Below, one piece after another: positions 1-37,993 of a stretch of DNA of 37,993 nt. The translations under genes were made by a program, and so were the position numbers. The DNA is taken from positions 1 through 37,993 of IMG/VR virus record IMGVR_UViG_3300043403_000112. One strand, 5' to 3'. Under the pieces are notes generated by a model. It saw only the letters and a program-made list of their open reading frames with translations, did no database searches and was not told where the DNA came from. Numbering within the stretch: the first letter of the stretch is position 1; the number at the start of each line of letters is the position of its first letter. The stretch comes from a virus.

Positions 1-111
1 TACCGAAAGGGCCTCCGGCCACCCTATCAACAACGGAAATTCTGGGGAAGTGCTGAAATTACGGGGCGAGGCGAAAATTTTTCATTGGGAAATATCGGGG
101 GTCGGGCGTGA
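1..111 (+). CDS. Possible 3' end of an upstream gene, partial
   Basis: Frame 1 is open from the first base to a TGA at 109-111. That TGA overlaps the GTG start of the primase gene as GTGA, the junction used many times in this genome. The 36 visible residues match no family I know, and their codons are less GC-rich at third positions than neighbouring genes. The stretch could equally be a non-coding leader: it contains an AT-rich run (about 75-84) and a G-rich run just before the primase start. I treat it as possible only. Confidence 0.25.
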   Translation, partial: YRKGLRPPYQQRKFWGSAEITGRGENFSLGNIGGRA

Positions 112-3100
112 CGCAGTATCTGGGCGAGGACGTGGTGGCGCGGGTGAAGGCGGCGACGGATCTGGTCGCGGTGATGGGCGATTACACGACGGTCAAGCGC
201 GCGGGCGCGCATCACGTCGCGTGCTGTCCGTTCCATCAGGAGCGCACGCCGTCGCTGACGATCTACGACGACGGGCGCTATCACTGCTTCGGCTGCGGCG
301 CTGACGGTGACGCGATCAAGCTGGTGCAGGAATTGGAGCGCGTCGACTTCATCGATGCCGTCGAGACCTTGGCGCGCCGCGCCGGGATCGTGATCGAGCG
401 CAAGGCCGGCACCGGTCCGTCGAAGGGCCAGCGTCAATCGCTGCTCGCGGCGGTCGAGCTTGCCACCGCGTTTTATGCCGGCTGCCTGGCCAACGATGCT
501 GGCGCCGCCGCGCGCACATACCTCGCGCAACGCGGCTACACCGACGCCACCGTCGCCTCGTTCCGGCTCGGCTGGGCACCTGGTCGCGGCGCGTTGGTGG
601 CGCATGCGCACGCCGCTGGCATCGATCCAGCGTTGCTGGTCACTGCTGATCTGGCAGTCGACCGCGATGGTCGCCGCGTCGATCGATTCTTCGATCGCAT
701 CATGTGGCCGATCTGTGACCGCTTCGGGCAGCCGATCGCATTCTCGGCGCGCATCCTGCCCGAGGCCGAGCGCCGCGCGAAGGAAGCCGGCCACAGCGTC
801 GGCAAGTACGTCAACACCCGCGACACGCCGCTCTACCGCAAGGGCGACGGACTCTACAACCTGCACCGCGCCCGCAGCGCGGCACGCGACGCCGGGCAGT
901 TGCTGCTGGTCGAAGCGCAGACCGGCGTCATGGCCGCGCATCAGTGCGGCATGACCGCGACCACCGCAGCGCTGGGCACCGCACTGACCGCGCAGCAGGC
1001 CAAGCTGCTCGCCACTGCTGCTGGTGACGGTCGCTTGGTCGTGGTCTTCGACGGCGACGCCGCCGGCCGCGATCGCGCTGCCAAAGCCGTGGCCGAACTG
1101 CTGGCCATCGGCGCGCCATCGTCGGTCGCCACGCTGCCCGACGACCACGACCCCGCCGAACTGCTGGTCGAACATGCCGACCCCGCCGTCGGCCGCACGC
1201 TCTTCGACGACGCGATCGCCAAGGCGTGCGACGACGTGACGTACCTGCTGCGCACGATCGCGCCCGACCCGGCCGCGCTGCGCAATCACGAAGTCCTTGC
1301 CGCCGCCGACGCCATCGTCGCGGTGTTGCGTCGCATCCCGGATCCGGATCTGCGCGATCTACACGCGCAGGGGGCCGCCAAACACCTGCGGCTGCCAGCA
1401 TCCACCCTGCGTCGCCGCATGGGTGGCGATGAAAAACCACCGGAAAAAATCGATCTTCCCGACGACACGACGACACCGGCCCCGCCCGTACCCGGACTCC
1501 ACGACACTGTCGCGCAACCTCCCACTGGGGGCGGTGGGGATGTTACCGCGCCAACGACCGCGACCGAACCACCGCCCGAACGCGCCCTCACCGACTGGGG
1601 CAACGCCGAGCGCCTTGTGGATCGCCACGGCCTCGATCTGCGCTACGTCCACGACTGGGGCCACTGGCTGATCTGGGGCGGCACGCACTGGCAGATCGAC
1701 CACACGCAAGAATCCACGCGGCGGATGAAAGACACCATCCGCACCACCATCGGCGCCGAGATCGCCACCACCACCGAAACCATCACACGCCTGCGTGACG
1801 AAGTCCGCAACCTCGAATCCGTCAACACCCGCGTCAAACACAGCGATCTACGGCGCGCCCAGAACGCCTACATTTCCGCGCAGCGCCATCGCAAACAGTT
1901 GACGCGTCACCTGACGACCAGCGAAAACACCAGCCGCCTGCGCGCTGCTCTGGAATCGACGCAGTCGCAATCCGGCGTCGGCGTCGCCGTCACCGCGATC
2001 AACCGTGACCCATGGCTGTTCGCCGTGCGCAACGGCGTGCTCGATCTGCGCACCGGCGAACTGCGTCCGCATGACCGCGCCGACCTGATCACGCGCTGCG
2101 CCCCGATCGATTACCGCCGCGACGCCTACAGCGAACGTTGGGCGCGCTTCATGGAAGATTTGACCGGCGGCGACGAACAGCTTGAAGCGTACCTGCAACG
2201 CGCCGCCGGCTACAGCCTGACTGGGCTGACGCGCGAAGAAGTCGTCTTCCTGGTCCACGGTCCCGGCGCCGCCGGCAAGTCCACGTTCCTCTCGGCGCTG
2301 CAAGGCGTGATCGGCGACTACGCCAAGACCACCGACTTCGAAACCTTCCTGGCCTCCCCCAATCCGCGCGCGCGCGAACAGTACCTGGCAGCGCTTGAAG
2401 AAGCCCGCCTCGTCGTCTGCTCCGAATCCGGCAGCGGCAAACGCTTCGCCGAAGAGGCGATTAAGAAAGTCACCGGCGGCGACGCCGTCCTGGCGCGGCG
2501 GCTGTACGCCGAGCCCTACGAATACATCCCGCGCTGGAAACTGTGGCTGGTCTGCAACGACCCGCCGTACGTCAGCGACGTCGACAGCGGATTCTGGCGC
2601 CGCCTGCAATGCGTCGCGCTCACCAACTCGATCCCCGCCGCCCTGCGCGACAAGGATCTCAAGACCTACCTGCGCGAAGATCCCGACACCCGCGCCGCCG
2701 TGCTGTGCTGGATGGTCAACGGCGCCCTGGCATACGCGCGCGAAGGTCTCGCGCCGCCCGCGTCGGTGCTGCGTGCGCGCGACGCCTACCGCGCGTCCAA
2801 CGACCCCATCGCCGACTGGCTTGCCGAACGCACCGTCTGGCGCACCGAACACAGCGCATGGGTCTCATGCGCCGAACTTGCGCTCGACTACCGCACCTGG
2901 TGCGAACACCTCGATCAAAAACCCCTGTCGCAAAAAGCGCTGGTCAAGCGTCTCGAAGCGCGCGGTGGCAAACGGACCCAGGGCCGTCTCGATGGTCGCG
3001 TCGTCAAACACTGGACCGGCGTACGCCTGCGCCGCCCGAACGAAGACGACGAAACCGTCCCCGCCAACGTGCCGCCGATGCTCGGCGCCGGCGACCCGCC

Positions 3101-3599
3101 CGACCGCATGACCCCCGAAAAATCTGTAACCGCATCTGTAACCGCATCTGTAACCGGAAAAAACGCAGACCACTCGTTGCGGTTACAAACCGACGAAGCG
3201 ACCACCCATGACCCCATCACCATCCCCGACACCAACCCACCACCAGCCACCGATGCCGCCGTGTATCCGGTTACGTATCCGGAAATGTACCCGCACAAGT
3301 CCAGTACTGACAACGCTGTACCCGCAAAACCGGAAAACGGCCCGCACGCGCGCGCACACACGGGCGCGCACGCCCGCACGCGCGCGAATGAAAATCTTTC
3401 TCCAAAAAAATGCATAGAAAAAGATAAAGACTCAGCGGTTACCGGTTACAGCCCCGCCGGCGAACCAACAGCCCCGACGCGCGGCGACCGACTGACCGCC
3501 GACCCATCGCCCGCCGAAGACGCCTTCGCCGACGACAGCATCCCCGACCTCAGCCCGCCCCCCGACGAACCACCAGCCCAAGGCGAACCGTCATGGTAG
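108..3599 (+). CDS. Primase-helicase fusion: DnaG-like primase plus P4/D5-type helicase
   Basis: A 1163-residue replication protein expected to make primers and unwind phage DNA. The N-terminus has a CHC2 zinc finger (C40, H43, C60, C63). A TOPRIM core follows, with the acidic motif LLLVEA near residue 265 and VVVFDGDAAGRD near 313. A Pro/Thr-rich linker (about 440-500) leads to a P4-type C-terminal domain with Walker A GPGAAGKST near 718 and the family's KKVTGGD and LVCNDPP motifs. This is superfamily 3 AAA+ architecture. The last 170 or so residues are low complexity, with repeated VTAS and YPVTYP-like units; the DNA beneath them looks like an origin. The GTG at 108 is chosen because a G-rich run precedes it and the CHC2 finger then sits at its normal distance from the N-terminus. 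It is the first gene of a long rightward series. Confidence 0.93.
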   Translation: MTQYLGEDVVARVKAATDLVAVMGDYTTVKRAGAHHVACCPFHQERTPSLTIYDDGRYHCFGCGADGDAIKLVQELERVDFIDAVETLARRAGIVIERKAGTGPSKGQRQSLLAAVELATAFYAGCLANDAGAAARTYLAQRGYTDATVASFRLGWAPGRGALVAHAHAAGIDPALLVTADLAVDRDGRRVDRFFDRIMWPICDRFGQPIAFSARILPEAERRAKEAGHSVGKYVNTRDTPLYRKGDGLYNLHRARSAARDAGQLLLVEAQTGVMAAHQCGMTATTAALGTALTAQQAKLLATAAGDGRLVVVFDGDAAGRDRAAKAVAELLAIGAPSSVATLPDDHDPAELLVEHADPAVGRTLFDDAIAKACDDVTYLLRTIAPDPAALRNHEVLAAADAIVAVLRRIPDPDLRDLHAQGAAKHLRLPASTLRRRMGGDEKPPEKIDLPDDTTTPAPPVPGLHDTVAQPPTGGGGDVTAPTTATEPPPERALTDWGNAERLVDRHGLDLRYVHDWGHWLIWGGTHWQIDHTQESTRRMKDTIRTTIGAEIATTTETITRLRDEVRNLESVNTRVKHSDLRRAQNAYISAQRHRKQLTRHLTTSENTSRLRAALESTQSQSGVGVAVTAINRDPWLFAVRNGVLDLRTGELRPHDRADLITRCAPIDYRRDAYSERWARFMEDLTGGDEQLEAYLQRAAGYSLTGLTREEVVFLVHGPGAAGKSTFLSALQGVIGDYAKTTDFETFLASPNPRAREQYLAALEEARLVVCSESGSGKRFAEEAIKKVTGGDAVLARRLYAEPYEYIPRWKLWLVCNDPPYVSDVDSGFWRRLQCVALTNSIPAALRDKDLKTYLREDPDTRAAVLCWMVNGALAYAREGLAPPASVLRARDAYRASNDPIADWLAERTVWRTEHSAWVSCAELALDYRTWCEHLDQKPLSQKALVKRLEARGGKRTQGRLDGRVVKHWTGVRLRRPNEDDETVPANVPPMLGAGDPPDRMTPEKSVTASVTASVTGKNADHSLRLQTDEATTHDPITIPDTNPPPATDAAVYPVTYPEMYPHKSSTDNAVPAKPENGPHARAHTGAHARTRANENLSPKKCIEKDKDSAVTGYSPAGEPTAPTRGDRLTADPSPAEDAFADDSIPDLSPPPDEPPAQGEPSW
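3126..3449. other. Candidate replication origin inside the primase-helicase gene
   Basis: Three direct copies of ATCTGTAACCGC/G start at about 12-bp intervals, with GTAACC at 3126, 3138 and 3150. Inverted copies (GGTTAC) occur at 3181, 3269, 3437 and 3444; TGCGGTTACA at 3178-3187 is an exact inverted copy of 10 bases of the iteron. Between the inverted copies lies an alternating C-G/C-A tract (about 3350-3386), then a run of about 44 bases with roughly three-quarters A+T (3387-3430) in an otherwise very GC-rich genome. Iterons plus an easily melted tract inside an initiator-type gene is the arrangement of the lambda O gene. The origin call is inference. Confidence 0.5.
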
Positions 3600-3841
3600 A
3601 TCCCTCGCCGCATCCACGCACGCACCACCACCCCGACATCCAAGGCGACCCCGGCGGCTACCTGCTCGCCCTCGACCAGGCCGCGCGCGAACTGACCGCC
3701 GCCATCGACGACGCCACCCGCAGCGTCGATCGCCACCGCGCACACGCACTGTCACTAGCACACCAGACCATCAGCCGCGAACGCAACGACGTACGCGATC
3801 GGCTGTCGCTGCTGCCGGCGTGTCTGGGGAATGCGTCGTGA
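3593..3841 (+). CDS. Small hypothetical phage protein
   Basis: An 82-residue ORF that overlaps the last codons of the primase-helicase gene and whose TGA overlaps the next gene's GTG. The N-terminus is rich in His and Pro. The rest is a probable helix (ALDQAARELTAAIDDA and onward) with a heptad-like pattern and high charge. I recognise no domain. Its position between replication and accessory genes, coupled on both sides, supports expression. Confidence 0.55.
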   Translation: MVDPSPHPRTHHHPDIQGDPGGYLLALDQAARELTAAIDDATRSVDRHRAHALSLAHQTISRERNDVRDRLSLLPACLGNAS

Positions 3842-4602
3842 CGTCGCAGCCGCTGCTGATGAGCGCACCCATGGTGCCCGGCACGATCGCCGGAATCAAA
3901 ACCCAGACGCGCCGCACGCGCGGACTGGATGCGATCAACGAAGATCCTGGCCAATGGATCGCCGCCGACCCGCCCACCGACCGCGACCCGCTGTGGATGC
4001 TGCGCGGTCGTGGCCACACGCATGGCACCGCGACGTGCGGCCCGGCCACACTCCTGAAATGTCCTTATCGCCTCGGCCACGCATGGATCCGCGAAACACA
4101 CATGATCGAAAGCAATCGCGGCATCGACTGCGCACAACACTATCCGCCGCCATTCTGCGATGGCCGCCCGATCCACCGCGTCACCGAAAGCGAAGATCCG
4201 AACCAGGGACCATACTGGGAACAATGCCACTACGCCGCCACCGATCCCAAGCCCGAACTGTGCGACGACGACGGCGCTCTCATGGGCTGGCGTCCATCAA
4301 TCCACATGCCGCGCTGGGCATCGCGCATCTCGATCGACATCAGCAGCATCCGCCTCGAACGACTGCACGACATCAGTGAAGCCGACGCTATCGCCGAAGG
4401 CATCGAACCGCTCAACGGCAACGGCCCGAACCGCTGGACCGTGACCGTCGACAACGTCGGACTGTCGGCACCGACGGCCAAAGAGGTCTACCGCGCGCTG
4501 CGGTCGTGGCGGCACGGCTACGACGGTCCTCTGGCCTGGGACGCCAATCCCTGGGTGTGGGCGCTCACCTTCCGCCGCTGCGAAGACCCGGAGGGCCTGT
4601 GA
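3838..4602 (+). CDS. ASCH-like phage protein
   Basis: A 254-residue protein resembling a phage family often labelled 'morphogenetic protein' and related to ASCH (PUA-like, RNA-binding) folds. Hallmarks are the N-terminal PMVPGTIAGIKTQTRR segment and the later motifs IHMPRWASRI, then ISEADAIAEGI, then NPWVWALTFRR at the C-terminus. The biochemical role is unknown; ASCH domains are generally linked to RNA or modified-base binding. The GTG at 3838 is preferred because it makes a GTGA overlap with the preceding stop; an internal ATG at 3859 is possible. The gene is coupled to the following DUF1643 gene. Confidence 0.75.
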   Translation: MTSQPLLMSAPMVPGTIAGIKTQTRRTRGLDAINEDPGQWIAADPPTDRDPLWMLRGRGHTHGTATCGPATLLKCPYRLGHAWIRETHMIESNRGIDCAQHYPPPFCDGRPIHRVTESEDPNQGPYWEQCHYAATDPKPELCDDDGALMGWRPSIHMPRWASRISIDISSIRLERLHDISEADAIAEGIEPLNGNGPNRWTVTVDNVGLSAPTAKEVYRALRSWRHGYDGPLAWDANPWVWALTFRRCEDPEGL

Positions 4603-5078
4603 CCGCCGACATCAGCCCCTGCGGCACCTACCGCTACAGACTGTCGCGAACCTGGGGAATCCGTACCAGCCGCGATCGCCTGCTGGTGTGCATGCTCAAC
4701 CCCAGCACCGCCGACGCGACGCAGGACGATCCAACCATTCGTCGCTGCATCGGCTTCGCCAAGCGCGAGGGGTGCTGCGGCCTCGACGTCGTCAACGCCT
4801 ACGCCTTGCGGGCCACCGATCCGAAGGTTCTCCGCACGCACATCGATCCGATCGGCACCAAAAACGACGTCACGTTATTCACGGCGGGAAGGCTTTACGC
4901 GTTCTGCCTGGTCGCGTGGGGAAGCAACATCGATACCGCGCGCGAACGCGACGTCTCCCGCCTGTTGTCCTCAACCGGTGCATGGCTGGGGTGTCTCGGC
5001 GTCACGAAAGACGGACACCCGCGCCATCCGCTCTATGTGCGCGCCGATCAGCCGATCGTTGCATGGAACCTCCCGTGA
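4599..5078 (+). CDS. DUF1643 family protein
   Basis: A 159-residue protein with the DUF1643 signature: CMLNPSTADATQDDPTIRRC, then FAKREGCCGLDVVNAYALRATDP and a central VAWGSNI segment. The family is common in phages and plasmids; its function is not established. The GTG start at 4599 overlaps the stop of the ASCH-like gene (GTGA) and sits just before the conserved domain. The longer reading frame from 4506 would overlap the upstream gene and encode unrelated residues, so it was not used. The end overlaps the next gene's GTG. Confidence 0.85.
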   Translation: MTADISPCGTYRYRLSRTWGIRTSRDRLLVCMLNPSTADATQDDPTIRRCIGFAKREGCCGLDVVNAYALRATDPKVLRTHIDPIGTKNDVTLFTAGRLYAFCLVAWGSNIDTARERDVSRLLSSTGAWLGCLGVTKDGHPRHPLYVRADQPIVAWNLP

Positions 5079-5809
5079 CCACCGCCGCGCCCGTCAACCT
5101 CGACACCGCCGCGCAAGACCGTCTCTTCGACGGTCAGATCACGCCGGCGCAGACCAACGTCGCGGCGATCCAGGAATACGCGCGTTCGATCCGTCGCAAG
5201 CAGGCCCTCGGCGAACGCCTCTCCCCCGTCGAACTGAAAACCTTGGAACGCGCCGCGTTCCTCGAAGTCTCCACCGTCGTCTGGCGCGACCGCGCCGACT
5301 GCGCCGCCGAAATAAAAACCCTCTGCGGCCTCACCTACAACGCGCTCGACAAACGCAAATGCCCGTGGAACGCCCACGGCCCAACCGAAAAGTATCCGGT
5401 CCTGCGCTGGCTCGCGCAGATCCTGGCCGGCGAAGTCGCCGTCGCCAAAGCGCGCGCCCGCGAAGCCAAAGTCGACTGCGCCGTCGACCGCGAACAAGAA
5501 GCCGCCCGCCTGCGCCGCCTGGTCGCGCAAACCGACCACGAAGAAACCCAAGTCGCGCGCCTCAAAGAACGCCTGCGCATCGAAGCCGACGACAGCGCCC
5601 GCCAGATCGTCATCGACCTCTGTGGCACCCTGCGCCGCACCCTGATCGACGAACTTCCCGCGACCCTGGTCGAACTCGCCCGCGCCGCCCCCGACGACCG
5701 CGCCGCCGCCGAACAATCGATCCGCGCCGCCCTCGACGCCGCGATCGCCCGCGCAATGGCGACACCTGCTCCTGCTCCCGCACCGATCACCACAGGGGTT
5801 CCCGCATGA
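5075..5809 (+). CDS. Putative terminase small subunit
   Basis: A 244-residue, strongly helical protein placed where lambdoid phages encode the DNA-recognition subunit of the packaging motor. Residues around LCGLTYNALDKRKCPWNAHG, followed by YPVLRWLAQILAGEVA, resemble the winged-helix region of Nu1-like small terminases. The middle is a long charged helix with alternating Arg and Glu that would form a coiled coil, and the tail is Ala/Pro-rich. Start: the GTG at 5075 overlaps the previous stop; the ATG at 5063 is in frame and also possible. Function rests on weak motif similarity and gene order, because seven tiny ORFs separate it from the large subunit. Confidence 0.6.
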   Translation: MTTAAPVNLDTAAQDRLFDGQITPAQTNVAAIQEYARSIRRKQALGERLSPVELKTLERAAFLEVSTVVWRDRADCAAEIKTLCGLTYNALDKRKCPWNAHGPTEKYPVLRWLAQILAGEVAVAKARAREAKVDCAVDREQEAARLRRLVAQTDHEETQVARLKERLRIEADDSARQIVIDLCGTLRRTLIDELPATLVELARAAPDDRAAAEQSIRAALDAAIARAMATPAPAPAPITTGVPA

Positions 5810-6015
5810 TCATTTCACACCTGCACATGTTCCGCACCGGCGACAACGGACCGCTGAAAGGATCGATTACCATCCAAGGCACGGCTGGTGCCGTCTCGCT
5901 CCAACTCGACGAAGCATCTTGCCAGCGCATCATCGATGTCATGCGCACCGGCATGCGATCGTGCCTCGACGCGCTGGCCACCGGGCTGCGCACTGAAATC
6001 GAGTCAAGGACATAA
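5806..6015 (+). CDS. Tiny hypothetical protein
   Basis: A 69-residue ORF whose ATG overlaps the small-terminase stop (ATGA). The first half is predicted beta (KGSITIQGTAGAVSLQLD) and the second a helix (ASCQRIIDVMRTGM). No known family is recognised. It is the first of a run of seven tiny ORFs between the terminase subunits. Coupling and the lack of gaps support its being a gene. Confidence 0.6.
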   Translation: MIISHLHMFRTGDNGPLKGSITIQGTAGAVSLQLDEASCQRIIDVMRTGMRSCLDALATGLRTEIESRT

Positions 6016-6017
6016 CC

Positions 6018-6290
6018 ATGACCTTCGACGTGGATGTGCCACCAGATCCCGCATCACGGCAGTCTGCATCTGCATGCGCGCAGCGGCAGCGCGTCCGATC
6101 CGTCGCTGTCCCCGCCACGCTGCTGCTGCGCGCCGCCGTGCGGCTCGAACGCGAAGCGCGCCACCTGGGGCAATCGTACCGGACGCCACCGCCCGATTGC
6201 ACATGGGACAACCTCGACGCCCTGCGCCAGTTCAACGACTACCGCACGTTGGCCAAGGAACTGCGCCGTGCTGCGCGAGGTGCGCCATGA
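6018..6290 (+). CDS. Small hypothetical protein
   Basis: A 90-residue basic protein. An AAGGA ribosome-binding site (in gtcaaggacataaccATG) precedes the ATG, confirming the start. The C-terminal half has a helix followed by CTWDNLDALRQFNDYRTLAKELRRA, suggesting a small helical fold. No family is recognised. Its stop overlaps the next ATG. Confidence 0.6.
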   Translation: MTFDVDVPPDPASRQSASACAQRQRVRSVAVPATLLLRAAVRLEREARHLGQSYRTPPPDCTWDNLDALRQFNDYRTLAKELRRAARGAP

Positions 6291-6490
6291 CGATCACCCT
6301 CCGTCCCCTCGCCCAACCCACCGCCCTGCGCTGCGCCGACTGCGGGCGCGCGGCAACGTGTATGATCGAACGCGTCGCCGACGGCGTCACCACGCGCCGC
6401 GCGTTGTGCGACGATGCCGCCCGCGACGTGGCGCGCGCGCATGATCTGCTGTGGCCGCCGCTGACCGACGCCGACATCGAGGTGCCCTGA
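6287..6490 (+). CDS. Tiny Cys-containing hypothetical protein
   Basis: A 67-residue ORF overlapping its neighbour as ATGA. It contains a CADCGRAATC cluster and a later Cys in RRALCDDAA, which may form a small zinc-binding site. The pattern CxxC, then xxRALCDDAARDVA, is typical of small phage zinc-knuckle proteins of unknown role. No specific function can be assigned. Confidence 0.6.
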   Translation: MTITLRPLAQPTALRCADCGRAATCMIERVADGVTTRRALCDDAARDVARAHDLLWPPLTDADIEVP

Positions 6491-6690
6491 TGTTCATCCG
6501 CATCGTCTATCCTGGATCACCCGACCACTTCACCGGACGCCGCGCGCCTGATCCGAATCCCGCGACCGCGCCCGACGTGGCGCCCGTGCCTGATGCCCGA
6601 CCGTCGCACCAGCGCGCCCATCACTGGGGCGAAGGCAGCGAAACGCGCGCGCGGCGCACGCGCCGCAATGCCCGGCGGAAAGCACCATGA
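6490..6690 (+). CDS. Tiny basic hypothetical protein
   Basis: A 66-residue ORF starting with an ATG that overlaps the previous TGA by one base (TGATG). The N-terminus is MFIRIVYPGS; the middle is Pro/Ala-rich and the end is very basic (RRTRRNARRKAP), suggesting disorder or nucleic-acid contact. No family is recognised. The next gene starts inside its final codons. Confidence 0.5.
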   Translation: MFIRIVYPGSPDHFTGRRAPDPNPATAPDVAPVPDARPSHQRAHHWGEGSETRARRTRRNARRKAP

Positions 6691-6923
6691 ACGAACTCGC
6701 CTGGCTCCGGCACCTGCTGGATCACGCCACCGCGCGCGATCAACGCGAGATCTTCCTGATCGACGACACCGCGATGGCGCCCAACCGCATGATCCGCGTG
6801 CGTCCCGGCCTGCTGGGCATGACCACCGCCCTGCGTCCACCGCAATATTCCAACCCACGCGCCACCGTCGTCACTGTCACCTGCGCCGATCTGCGTGCCT
6901 GGCTGCGGGCGGTGACGCCGTGA
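6687..6923 (+). CDS. Small hypothetical protein
   Basis: A 78-residue ORF with overlapping start and stop junctions on both sides (ATGA, then GTGA). It has a helical N-terminus (ELAWLRHLLDHATARDQREIF) and a likely beta C-terminus. No family is recognised. It belongs to the tiny-ORF cassette between the terminase genes. Confidence 0.55.
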   Translation: MNELAWLRHLLDHATARDQREIFLIDDTAMAPNRMIRVRPGLLGMTTALRPPQYSNPRATVVTVTCADLRAWLRAVTP

Positions 6924-7120
6924 CCGACCTCATGCCCTGCCCATTTTGCGGACGAACACCGCAGGGGGTCAATTATCAGCGCCGCTACGACTTCGACTTC
7001 GCCATTGAATGCGAATGCGGCGCCTGCATGTCGAAATGCGAGTACGCGGGCGGTCGCGGAGCGCGTACCGAGGAAGAAACGGTAGCTCAGTGGAATCGGC
7101 GTTCGGAGGTGAAGCCATGA
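6920..7120 (+). CDS. Lar-like zinc-ribbon protein
   Basis: A 66-residue protein of the pattern found in Lar-type restriction-alleviation and related phage zinc-ribbon proteins: an N-terminal LMPCPFCGRTP, a second pair in CECGAC, and a C-terminal TEEETVAQWNRRSE. Lar of Rac modulates host type I restriction, but most relatives have no tested function, so only the fold is claimed. The GTG at 6920 overlaps the previous stop. The 3' end is followed closely by a strong Shine-Dalgarno for the next gene. Confidence 0.7.
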   Translation: MTDLMPCPFCGRTPQGVNYQRRYDFDFAIECECGACMSKCEYAGGRGARTEEETVAQWNRRSEVKP

Positions 7121-7395
7121 AGTCTCTACGAATCACCAAATCCCGAGAATGGATCGTTAACATTGAATGGGATCGAAAGCTGAACACCGGAATTTTTTCC
7201 AGACACAAATCAGAGGCCGAGGCGCGCTCGCATCTGCGCAAAGTCGTCGAGGCCGACCCGCCAACGCGGTGGCGCATCGTCTCGGTCCGCGAGGTCAGAG
7301 CGGTGCTCGACGATTTCGGCGTCGGATGGGACGCTGACGACATGGACAATCCACCACCTCCAACGCTGTCCGCCGCCATCCACATCACCCCGTGA
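7117..7395 (+). CDS. Small hypothetical protein with strong ribosome-binding site
   Basis: A 92-residue ORF whose ATG at 7117 follows GGAGGTGA, the best Shine-Dalgarno in this cassette. The first half looks like a beta-rich small domain (EWIVNIEWDRKLNTGIFSRH), followed by a helix (EAEARSHLRKVVE). Its base composition is visibly less GC-rich than neighbours, hinting at separate acquisition. No family is recognised. The stop overlaps the GTG of the large terminase. Confidence 0.65.
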   Translation: MKSLRITKSREWIVNIEWDRKLNTGIFSRHKSEAEARSHLRKVVEADPPTRWRIVSVREVRAVLDDFGVGWDADDMDNPPPPTLSAAIHITP

Positions 7396-15052: not shown

Positions 15053-15565
15053 GTGGCCTGGTTCGGCGATTGGCTGGGCGATTGGTTCGGCGATTGGTTC
15101 GGCGCCGGAACCGCGCCGACTGGCGACATCGCCGGCACCACCACCGCATCGTTAACCGGCGGCGCGACGCCCAGCGCTGTCGGCAGCCTCAGCGGTTCTG
15201 CCACCCTGTCACTGACCGGCGTCGACACGACGGGCGACACCGTTACCACGCCCGGCGGTGGCAGCGGACTGGTCTGGATCATCCCGCCCTATCCGCTTGC
15301 GCTGCCAGCCGTCACACCCACCGCGATCGCTTGGATCAGCGGTGCCGCGACCCTGACGCTGCGCGGCACTGCCCATGCGACCGCCACCGCATCGACGCCT
15401 GGAATCGCCGCGCTGTCGCTGTCGCTGACCGGCCGCGCTGCGCCCACCGCGATCGGAAACCTCGCAGGCAGCGGCACGTTGGCCATCTCTGCGCACGCGT
15501 CTGCCGACACCGTTTTCAATGACGACGACGAAGCCCTGTCGCTGTTGCTCGCTCTCGTCGGTTAA
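15053..15565 (+). CDS. Phage structural protein with DWFG and TLTL repeats
   Basis: A 170-residue protein starting from a GTG two bases after the previous stop. It opens with MAWFGDWLGDWFGDWFGAG, a tandem Gly-Asp-Trp-Phe repeat also tandem at DNA level. It continues with beta repeats of the same style as the preceding gene (SLSGSATLSLTG, then AWISGAATLTLRG and LAGSGTLAISA). The two neighbours therefore probably build related parts. The stop lies inside the first copy of a 12-bp tandem duplication. Confidence 0.6.
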   Translation: MAWFGDWLGDWFGDWFGAGTAPTGDIAGTTTASLTGGATPSAVGSLSGSATLSLTGVDTTGDTVTTPGGGSGLVWIIPPYPLALPAVTPTAIAWISGAATLTLRGTAHATATASTPGIAALSLSLTGRAAPTAIGNLAGSGTLAISAHASADTVFNDDDEALSLLLALVG

Positions 15566-33729: not shown

Positions 33730-34724
33730 GAATTGTCGCCGCTGATGAGGTCGCGGGCGCGGTCGAGACTGGTGCGCGCGTAGCGCAGGACTTGGCCGAT
33801 GGTCTTGTGGCCAGTGAAGTGGGCGACTTCCTGCGGGGCGAGCGGGCGGTGCCACGGCGCATCGCCGCGCAGCATGCGCGAGATGGCGACGCGCTTGAGG
33901 TCGTAGATCTTGCGCAAGCGTCCGGGGATCGATTGCGAGCTGCGCGGTGGCCAGGCGGCGCCGGTGTAGGGGCTGATGAAGAGCGCGGCGGTGCCGGCGC
34001 GCCCAGCGCACAGCGGACGCAGTCGATCGACGGTGTCGGGGAAGATCGGATGCACGAGCTGGTCGCCGCCCTTGATGCGGCAGGTGACGGTGGCGCCGGC
34101 GAGATCGATGTCGGCGATGGTCAGGCGCGCGGCAGTGATCGGACGCCAGCCGTAGGTGATCAGGCAGTGGACCAGCGCACCGCAATTGGGACTGAGGGCG
34201 TCGGCGTCGCGCTGCCAGCGCTCAATGGCTGATTCGCTGAGCAAGGGGCGGTCGGCGCGGCGCTTGGCGCGCGGCGGGCGGAGCGCGATCAGCGTGCGCA
34301 GATCGACCGGCTGTTCGAGCGTCTCGAATGCCCAGCGCAGGACGGCGCGCAGGCAGGCGCCGCCACGCGGACTGCCGCCATCGAGGCGCCAGGTCTGCAC
34401 GGTGGCCGGGGTGATGTCGGTGGGATGCGTCCAGGCGCGATCGGCGCACAGCGAGGTGATCCGCTTAGCGACGACGCTGGTCCACAGCGGATCGTTGCCG
34501 ATGGCATCGCGACTCTGCCGCCAGCGTTCGATCAGTTCGGTCATCGGTAGGATGGCCCCGCTGCGCACGGGTCGACGCGCGGCGACGGTGGCAGCGATGC
34601 GGTCGCGTTCGGCGACGGCCTTGGGTTTGGTGGTGATGATCGGCGAACTCTTGAGCGACGCGGCGCGGCCGCCGTCACGCCAGCGCACCCGATAGCCGCC
34701 GCGTACGCGTTCGATTGAGGCCAT
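33645..34724 (-). CDS. int: Tyrosine integrase
   Basis: A 359-residue site-specific recombinase. An N-terminal SAM-like region is followed by the catalytic domain with the box I Arg (YGWR, R194), beta-hairpin Lys (RIKGG, K218), box II region YDLKR (274-278), TGHK (H306), and nucleophile Tyr in RYAR (Y315). Box II normally reads HxLR; here the His position is Tyr and the aligned Arg is Lys, an unusual change. The 3' end carries one of the direct repeats. The ATG overlaps the stop of the upstream exported-protein gene on the same strand. The target is probably tRNA-Leu. Confidence 0.88.
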   Translation of the reverse strand: MASIERVRGGYRVRWRDGGRAASLKSSPIITTKPKAVAERDRIAATVAARRPVRSGAILPMTELIERWRQSRDAIGNDPLWTSVVAKRITSLCADRAWTHPTDITPATVQTWRLDGGSPRGGACLRAVLRWAFETLEQPVDLRTLIALRPPRAKRRADRPLLSESAIERWQRDADALSPNCGALVHCLITYGWRPITAARLTIADIDLAGATVTCRIKGGDQLVHPIFPDTVDRLRPLCAGRAGTAALFISPYTGAAWPPRSSQSIPGRLRKIYDLKRVAISRMLRGDAPWHRPLAPQEVAHFTGHKTIGQVLRYARTSLDRARDLISGDNSVVHHGSPSALPRNHRHPAPNENTGKTA

Positions 34725-35737
34725 CAGTCGGTCTGTTGTGGCATGGTATTCTTTGGCGCGGAGATCGGCATGACCGACCAGATCAGCATCGCCAGCCAGC
34801 CGACGGTCATGAGCACGACGGGCACGGGTTTAGTCATATCAGAGGCTGCGAGTGCGAACGCCGCCGGCGGCGTTGCCAGTGCGGCAGCGTAGATCGGCAT
34901 TCGATAGGGATGACGCCGTCGCCATGCCACCACCACAGGAATCAGCCAGATTGCCGTCGCTAGGGACCAAGCGATCACGATCCACCGCACCATGCGTGCA
35001 TGTGCTTCATCGTCGCGCCGCCGCTGTTCTGCGATTCGCTGGGCCAGTTCTTGTTTGAGCTGCTGCTGGGACTGTTCCAGTGACCGGTCCCATTCGGATG
35101 CGTCTATCGCGCTGTTGGGGATGTCTTCTGTTGGCTGTATCGCGTCTTTCCCCGGAATCGCGGATGCGGCTTCGCGTCGCCGCGCCATTTCTTCTGCTCG
35201 GTTGCGTTCGTCATCGGCTGCGTTTTTGGCATCGAAGGCGGCCTGCTTGCGCGCTTCATCGGCTTTGACGATGGCGTCCATCGCGTCGGCGGTTTGCGTG
35301 GCGGGATTGAAGTCATAGCCCAAGGCGCGGTACTGCTGCGCGCGCGTCGCGGCCCGTGCGCGTTGCTGTTGTTCGTTCTGCATCGCGGCAATTTTCGCGT
35401 CACGTTCGGCGGCGCGGGCTGCCAGTTCGGATTCGGTACGTGTGCGTTCGGCGGCGATGGCATCGAGCGCGGCGCGTGTTTCCGGTGGCAGGGCCGGTGG
35501 CGGGGCGTCGGCGATCACGGTGCGGGTGACGATGTCGGATGGGGCGACGGGCAGCACGGCGACGGTGGCTTTGCCGCTGGCACTGCCGCCGATCAGGGCA
35601 TGCAGTTGCTGCTTGGCTGCGAGGTAGACGCCGTCGAAGGCGCGTCCGTCGCGCAGGGTGAAATGTTCGCGCGGGCCGTCGGGCAGGTCGGCGGCCATGA
35701 GCGCTGACGCGCAGAGGATCAGGATGGCGATGCGCAT
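34724..35737 (-). CDS. Exported/membrane protein, paralogue B, coupled to integrase
   Basis: A 337-residue protein with a signal peptide (MRIAILILCASALMAADLPD), an N-terminal domain shared with paralogue A (EHFTLRDGRAFDGVYLAAKQ), a long charged coiled coil (about 90-235), and C-terminal membrane segments (WIVIAWSLATAIWLIPVVVA, then MPIYAAALATPPAAFALAAS and VVLMTVGWLAMLIWSVMPI). The coiled coil would lie outside the cytoplasm. Its TGA overlaps the integrase ATG (TGATG), so both probably share a transcript. A superinfection-exclusion or lysogenic-conversion role is a guess from context. Confidence 0.68.
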   Translation of the reverse strand: MRIAILILCASALMAADLPDGPREHFTLRDGRAFDGVYLAAKQQLHALIGGSASGKATVAVLPVAPSDIVTRTVIADAPPPALPPETRAALDAIAAERTRTESELAARAAERDAKIAAMQNEQQQRARAATRAQQYRALGYDFNPATQTADAMDAIVKADEARKQAAFDAKNAADDERNRAEEMARRREAASAIPGKDAIQPTEDIPNSAIDASEWDRSLEQSQQQLKQELAQRIAEQRRRDDEAHARMVRWIVIAWSLATAIWLIPVVVAWRRRHPYRMPIYAAALATPPAAFALAASDMTKPVPVVLMTVGWLAMLIWSVMPISAPKNTMPQQTD

Positions 35738-37388: not shown

Positions 37389-37993
37389 GCACGACCATCG
37401 CATCCGCCCCAGCGCCGCTGCGCGCTTTCCACAACGACCCCGCGATCAAGCAGACCTATCTGGAGCGCCTGCGTGCACACCGCGCGGCTGACGAATTGGT
37501 GCACGGGAAGTATTGGGAGAACGGCAAGGGGTGCGCCGTCGGTTGTACGATTCATAGCGGCGATCACGCACGGTACGAGACGGAACTGGGTATTCCGCGC
37601 ATTTTGGCTCGACTCGAAGATCGGCTGTTTGAGGCGATGCCCGAGGTCGATGCCATGTTGTGGCCGGAACGGTTTCTGGATGCGATCGCGGTTGGCGCCG
37701 ATCTGAGCGGTGTCGCGGATCGTTTTTTGGAATGGCTGCTGGGCGTGACGCGCGCGTATGCGCGGTCTGAGCGCGCGATCGCGTCGATCGATCAGGTGCG
37801 CGGCATGTACCAGCGCCGGATCGCTGGGGATAACCCCACGCCCCAAGAGTGGCGTGCCGCCGCCGCCGCCGCCGCCTACGCCGCCTACGCCGCCGCCGCC
37901 GCCTACGCCGCCTACGCCGCCGCCGCCGCCTACGCCGCCGACGCCGCCGACGCCGCCGCCTACGCCGTCGCCGCCGCCGACGCCGCCGCCTAC
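37385..37993 (+). CDS. Conserved phage protein with Ala/Tyr repeats, partial
   Basis: The first 203 codons of a conserved phage protein. The N-terminal 155 residues carry a recognisable block: LRAHRAADELVHGKYWENGK, GCAVGCTIHSGDHARYETEL, LARLEDRLFEAMPEVDAMLW, ERFLDAIAVGADLSGVADRF. Then comes a run of Ala with regularly placed Tyr and Asp that continues past the window edge. Such Ala/Tyr repeats are typical of this family; the function is unknown. Coupled to HTH regulator 3, it is probably an early gene. The true C-terminus is missing. Confidence 0.8.
   Translation, partial: MSTTIASAPAPLRAFHNDPAIKQTYLERLRAHRAADELVHGKYWENGKGCAVGCTIHSGDHARYETELGIPRILARLEDRLFEAMPEVDAMLWPERFLDAIAVGADLSGVADRFLEWLLGVTRAYARSERAIASIDQVRGMYQRRIAGDNPTPQEWRAAAAAAAYAAYAAAAAYAAYAAAAAYAADAADAAAYAVAAADAAAY
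37856..37993. repeat. GCC/TAC tandem repeat at window edge
   Basis: About 138 bases of GCC codons interrupted by TAC and, later, GAC, in units such as GCCGCCTAC (9 bp) and longer. It encodes the Ala/Tyr/Asp repeat of the partial gene. Short-period repeats like this are slippage-prone and difficult to assemble. Confidence 0.9.

Follow-up and report, generated by a model that had tools for sequence, protein, structure and literature searches.

The 3′ end of the primase-helicase gene of this phage carries an array of short repeats at positions 3125–3450 of the window (the whole stretch of 37,993 nucleotides that was analysed, IMG/VR virus record IMGVR_UViG_3300043403_000112). We read this array, with a probability of about 0.85, as the double-strand replication origin of the phage, of the iteron type that is served by an SF3 initiator. 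The array lies wholly within the gene (108–3599), past the last folded domain of the encoded protein, and the stop codon (3597–3599) follows about 147 bp after the last iteron. An earlier note on this DNA had proposed a replication origin inside the primase-helicase gene, and sequence comparison lends support to that proposal through the recurrence of SF3-linked arrays in other phages, the annotated origin of phage Sfi21 and the layout of PICI origins.

Layout of the iteron array

GTAACC occurs 12 times in the window, compared to 4.4 expected, and seven of the 12 copies fall in 3126–3449. Three of these are direct (3126, 3138 and 3150) and four are inverted (3181, 3269, 3437 and 3444), which bears out the three direct copies at 12-bp spacing and the at least four inverted ones that the earlier note had listed. 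A second, degenerate triplet with the cores GTATCCG at 3263 and 3275 and GTACCCG at 3287 had been overlooked; it could be partly decayed. When the fourth base is left free, 11 GTAHCCG copies are found within 324 bp (3126–3449). GTANCCG, of which 10.8 copies would be expected in the whole window, is present 22 times, and 11 of these copies fall in the same interval.

The alternating CG/CA tract that had been described together with the repeats is real (3339–3386). The A+T-rich tract of about 44 bases was located at 3387–3430 (34 of 44 positions) and is the 44-mer with the highest A+T content anywhere in the window. It is flanked by two iteron sets, triplets I and II on one side and the inverted pair on the other. 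GC skew, which had been suggested as a means of locating the origin, follows gene direction in the window and places no origin.

Table 1 Coordinates of the primase-helicase gene, its domains and the elements of the repeat array (aa, residues of the primase-helicase)
Feature	Position	Strand	Basis or remark
Primase-helicase gene, 1163 aa	108–3599	+	Domain matches
CHC2 zinc finger, DnaG N and Toprim	aa 7–356		
D5_N	aa 500–686		E 6e-31
DUF5906/SF3	aa 717–832		1.8e-9
Predicted winged helix, candidate iteron-binding domain	2841–3035 (aa 912–976)	+	AlphaFold2 model
Disordered C-terminal tail	3045–3596 (aa 980–1163)	+	Predicted
Iteron triplet I, three direct TGTAACCG, 12-bp spacing	3125–3156	+	
Inverted iteron TGTAACCG	3180–3187	-	
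Iteron triplet II, degenerate: TGTATCCG, CGTATCCG, TGTACCCG, 12-bp spacing	3262–3293	+	
Inverted iteron GTAACCG within triplet II	3268–3274	-	
Degenerate iteron TGTACCCG	3317–3324	+	Core at 3318
Alternating CG/CA tract	3339–3386	.	Purine-pyrimidine alternation
A+T-rich tract, 77% (34/44)	3387–3430	.	Candidate unwinding element
Two inverted iterons, GTAACCG and TGTAACCG, 7 bp apart, past the A+T tract	3436–3450	-	
Next ORF	3593–3841	+	ATG shares bases with the primase-helicase stop (ATGGTAG)

Repeat excess and loss of codon periodicity

Given the protein and the codon usage of the phage, 0.27 copies of GTAACC are expected in 3126–3449, where seven are seen. None of 20,000 synonymous recodings of the same protein contained more than three copies, and none of 20,000 codon permutations reached seven. 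GTAACC/CGGTTA is also the top hexamer cluster in the window (Poisson P about 1e-9).

The repeats might instead be derived from the protein, whose low-complexity tail would evolve fast and contain SVTASVTASVTG as a tandem peptide repeat; the DNA would then have no function of its own. The direct copies, all of them in codon phase 0, do recur in frame every four codons (12 bp), and in tail-fibre-like genes GTAACC does arise from VT-rich peptide repeats. However, the inverted copies are spread over three codon phases and encode RLQ, PVT, AVT and GYS, and therefore no single peptide repeat explains the GTAACC copies. As the synonymous nulls never match the GTAACC count, and homologues hold the same array past their stop codons, we consider a protein-derived repeat scarcely credible.

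GC1/2/3 is 0.58/0.54/0.57 in 3119–3460, compared to 0.71/0.51/0.81 elsewhere in the gene. Codon periodicity is gone across the array, yet the frame is open, a state found in only 2% of composition-matched shuffles. The flattened GC1/2/3, together with the predicted disorder of residues 980–1163, supports the suggestion of the earlier note that the protein is unconstrained in this region.

TGTAACC arrays near the 3′ ends of other SF3 genes

In order to find similar arrays independently of the protein, we used a pattern of mixed orientation (TGTAACCN5TGTAACCN{10,40}GGTTACA) to search viral and genome collections. It was adopted because a pattern of three direct GTAACC copies was unspecific and had to be dropped, most of its matches being VT/YG peptide repeats or tail-fibre-like genes. 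The TGTAACC pattern matched at least 119 viral loci and 54 loci of the genome collections; a permuted heptamer in the same pattern frame matched seven viral loci, compared to the at least 119 for TGTAACC.

Among the matches listed, a large ORF terminates within 750 bp of the array in 67 of 173 loci. Within these 67 ORFs, Pfam matches are to DUF5906 (32), VapE (24), DUF927 (5) and D5_N (4), and there are also matches to PHROGs DNA primase/helicase families. An SF3-type homologue is present anywhere in the locus in 82 of the 173 loci among the matches listed, and in most of the 82 the array follows the 3′ end of this gene at a distance of a few hundred bp at most. SF3-linked TGTAACC arrays were thereby found in dozens of unrelated phages and prophages, usually in non-coding DNA past the stop codon. 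In two D5_N relatives, L035 and L193, the arrays begin about 20–80 bp either side of the stop and are mostly non-coding. The same array-after-gene arrangement was found, through the first pattern, with two DUF5906 proteins (L007 and L048) and with a P-loop ATPase related to known members (L088). L203 is a second case of an array that lies entirely within an ORF.

Of the other SF3-adjacent arrays, 54 have at least six copies, and in 45 of these the 44-mer with the highest A+T content of the locus falls inside the array, compared to 14% expected. T precedes 89% of 330 copies outside the positions set by the search pattern, which extends the core to the heptamer TGTAACC. The commonest spacing between copies is 12 bp, a peak to which the search pattern itself contributes part.

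Two of the loci deserve a separate remark. In L203 (8462–10861) the TGTAACC array occupies the 3′ end of a frame and encodes the VT/CNP/GLQ-rich tail that follows an apparent helix-turn-helix region. In L235 (8598–10859) a TGTAACC array has a DUF3987/Prim-Pol protein in its vicinity, and this type of iteron may thus be used by DUF3987 helicases as well.

That the array of the window is a regulatory operator for expression or copy number, bound by a repressor or by the primase-helicase while replication starts elsewhere, appears improbable. Its inverted pairs and palindromic overlaps, such as 3266–3283, look operator-like, but the array lies at the end of a gene and not upstream of a promoter, and it combines 11 copies with an A+T core. 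It also argues against an operator that in many phages such arrays accompany the 3′ ends of SF3 helicase genes, and that the annotated Sfi21 origin is laid out in the same way.

TGTAACC arrays of 3–6 copies are found beside small-terminase-like genes in other phages as well, where 13 of 43 scanned ORFs match phrog_51; TGTAACC is thus not exclusive to SF3 origins. Such terminase-side arrays (e.g. L136:6269–6316, L137:3551–3597 and L150:125–171) are possibly a packaging site or an operator. They raise the question of whether the array of the window is a pac/cos site for the small terminase subunit, which we hold to be very unlikely: the large terminase gene of the window starts at 7392, about 4 kb off, the array is inside the helicase gene, and it has many copies and an A+T core, like the SF3-linked arrays.

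Iterons of other sequence at the same position

A second comparison started from the genes. SF3 genes from bacterial genomes were sampled by Pfam family alone and joined with distant named relatives, and each locus was scanned, blind to the motif, for its strongest heptamer cluster at any position. Among the 50 loci with a strong cluster, it was located at −300 to +450 of the 3′ end of the SF3 gene in 41, compared to 23% expected, a count that is likely conservative, as the automatic strand choice is probably wrong in several of the exceptions. The heptamers vary by lineage and include ATGTAAC, GTTACAA, AGGTAAC, GTGAACA, TGGAACA, TGGCACA, CTAGGAC, CTTGTTC and others. Judged by these sequences, the position of the array is general among SF3 loci but its sequence is not, and GTAACC/TGTAACC is one recurrent type. 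A GTAACC motif universal to SF3 helicases was accordingly rejected, and since the motif-blind relatives usually carry iterons of other sequence at the same place, the motif alone is no proof of function.

Close relatives of the phage were found neither by protein pattern (helicase region, terminase) nor by DNA similarity, and conservation was therefore examined across deep divergence only; distant phage primases, once aligned, proved too divergent to serve for scanning. The earlier note had counted relatives lacking the iterons as evidence against an origin. Distant relatives often do have iterons at the same place, but their sequence differs, so that this expectation needs to be reworded.

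The primase-helicase and a proposed mechanism

The protein consists of a primase (aa 7–356), a helicase (aa 500–832) and a winged helix (aa 912–976), in that order. An AlphaFold2 model built on an alignment of five sequences has a mean pLDDT of 53 overall; the helicase core is modelled with moderate confidence, the winged helix reaches a pLDDT of about 65–80, and the 184 residues that follow it are without structure, with a pLDDT mostly near 30. A Foldseek search with this model retrieved viral D5-type primase-helicases and the SaPI5 primase-helicase 7ola (E about 1e-12). The homologues L035 and L193, which are 31% identical, terminate right past the winged helix, and the C-terminal tail is thus an extra part of the window protein. 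The primase part of the window protein is of the DnaG type and is fused to a D5/SF3 helicase; several relatives, L035 among them, have an AEP-type Prim-Pol.

By analogy with the C-terminal domains of SaPI Rep and Cch2, the winged helix probably binds the iterons. We propose that the primase-helicase, a hexameric SF3 enzyme of the D5 type with a fused DnaG-type primase, would recognise TGTAACCG through this C-terminal domain, and that assemblies on both iteron sets would melt the A+T-rich tract 3387–3430. The helicase would then load itself and the fused primase would begin synthesis. Binding, melting and initiation at 3125–3450 are all inferred. As the frame runs through the putative origin, the last ~180 residues may be a disordered by-product of selection acting on the DNA.

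We lean towards the wider view that, as a general rule, an SF3 primase-helicase of a tailed phage, plasmid or satellite comes with its cognate origin, situated within or shortly past the 3′ end of its gene, as one portable cassette of initiator plus origin, and that TGTAACC is a recognition sequence common to several SF3 families that have diverged deeply. Here the frame of the initiator would have overprinted the origin, so that origin DNA encodes a disordered tail. The two comparisons suggest that origins of this 3′-end type are common in phages. Phage origins are rarely annotated, and a simple rule follows, namely to search the surroundings of the 3′ ends of SF3 primase-helicase genes for iteron arrays. 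With TGTAACC and its relatives as the core to look for, the origins of many uncultured phages and prophages become predictable and testable. An embedded origin would also mean that a low-complexity C-terminal tail can be a disguised DNA element.

Other features of the window

At the window end (37856–37988), about 14 copies of a GCCGACGCC-type unit are repeated in tandem with a period of 9/27, and four near-identical 12-bp repeats TGGCTCGGCGAT lie within an ORF at 15059–15104. An ORF with a Lar-like restriction-alleviation domain (Pfam PF14354, PHROG 599) is located at 6593–7120, in the same block as a DUF1643 protein (4506–5078).

Comparison with known origins

The best reading is that the origin would work like those of SaPI/PICI elements, P4 and Sfi21, but inside the coding sequence of its initiator. 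PICI origins lie immediately 3′ of rep and consist of two iteron sets around an A+T-rich region (PMC6092414). In SaPI/PICI elements, as proposed for the window, a helicase or primase-helicase loads itself at an origin that lies at the 3′ end of the gene encoding it. Both also have an A+T-rich region with an iteron set on each side, and an SF3/D5-type initiator with a C-terminal DNA-binding domain, for which the window has a predicted winged helix; the fold match to the SaPI5 primase-helicase 7ola is a further likeness. Several points set the window apart. Its array is inside the ORF and not immediately downstream of the initiator gene, and the phage has its own large terminase and portal and is not a satellite; on these two counts we do not class it as a SaPI/PICI origin. 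The primases differ in type, DnaG (Toprim) in the window and AEP in SaPIs, and the window iteron TGTAACCG differs from SaPI/PICI iterons.

P4 encodes the primase-helicase alpha (4636–6969, on the minus strand), and the cis-required crr (4291–4590), with direct and inverted octamers, lies just past the 3′ end of that gene. Its domain order of primase, helicase and C-terminal DNA-binding region is found in the window too, the last of these as a prediction. However, P4 has two separate sites, crr and ori1, and its type 1 iteron octamer, present in ori and crr, is TGTTCACC and not TGTAACC; the window iteron TGTAACCG does not match it.

In the Streptococcus phage Sfi21 (NC_000872) the annotated origin (34487–34784) begins in the last codons of the primase gene and holds two GTAACC, two GGTTAC, many AGTAAC and an A+T core. 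Like the window, Sfi21 thus has an A+T-rich core surrounded by GTAACC/GTAACT cores of either orientation, but its origin is nearly all non-coding and its iterons are mostly AGTAACT, with other spacing. In Phi105, AAGTAAC repeats directly follow the primase gene. The D5-like helicase Cch2 of SCCmec binds, through its C-terminal domain, short repeats just past its own gene and unwinds them (PMC7581432). Unlike the window, the Cch2 system has three copies of an AAGTG iteron and a separate polymerase-type primase.

Lambda is the system in which iterons and an A+T-rich element lie within the coding sequence of the initiator (gene O), as in the window. Lambda O, which is no helicase, loads the host helicase through P and has longer iterons. 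The candidate initiator of the window, in contrast, combines an SF3 helicase with a primase, and the array falls in the part of the gene that encodes its disordered tail, past every folded domain. The parallel to lambda drawn by the earlier note thus stands for an origin within the initiator gene but not for the mechanism, which would be closer to that of SaPI/PICI, P4 and Sfi21, whose initiators are themselves helicases.
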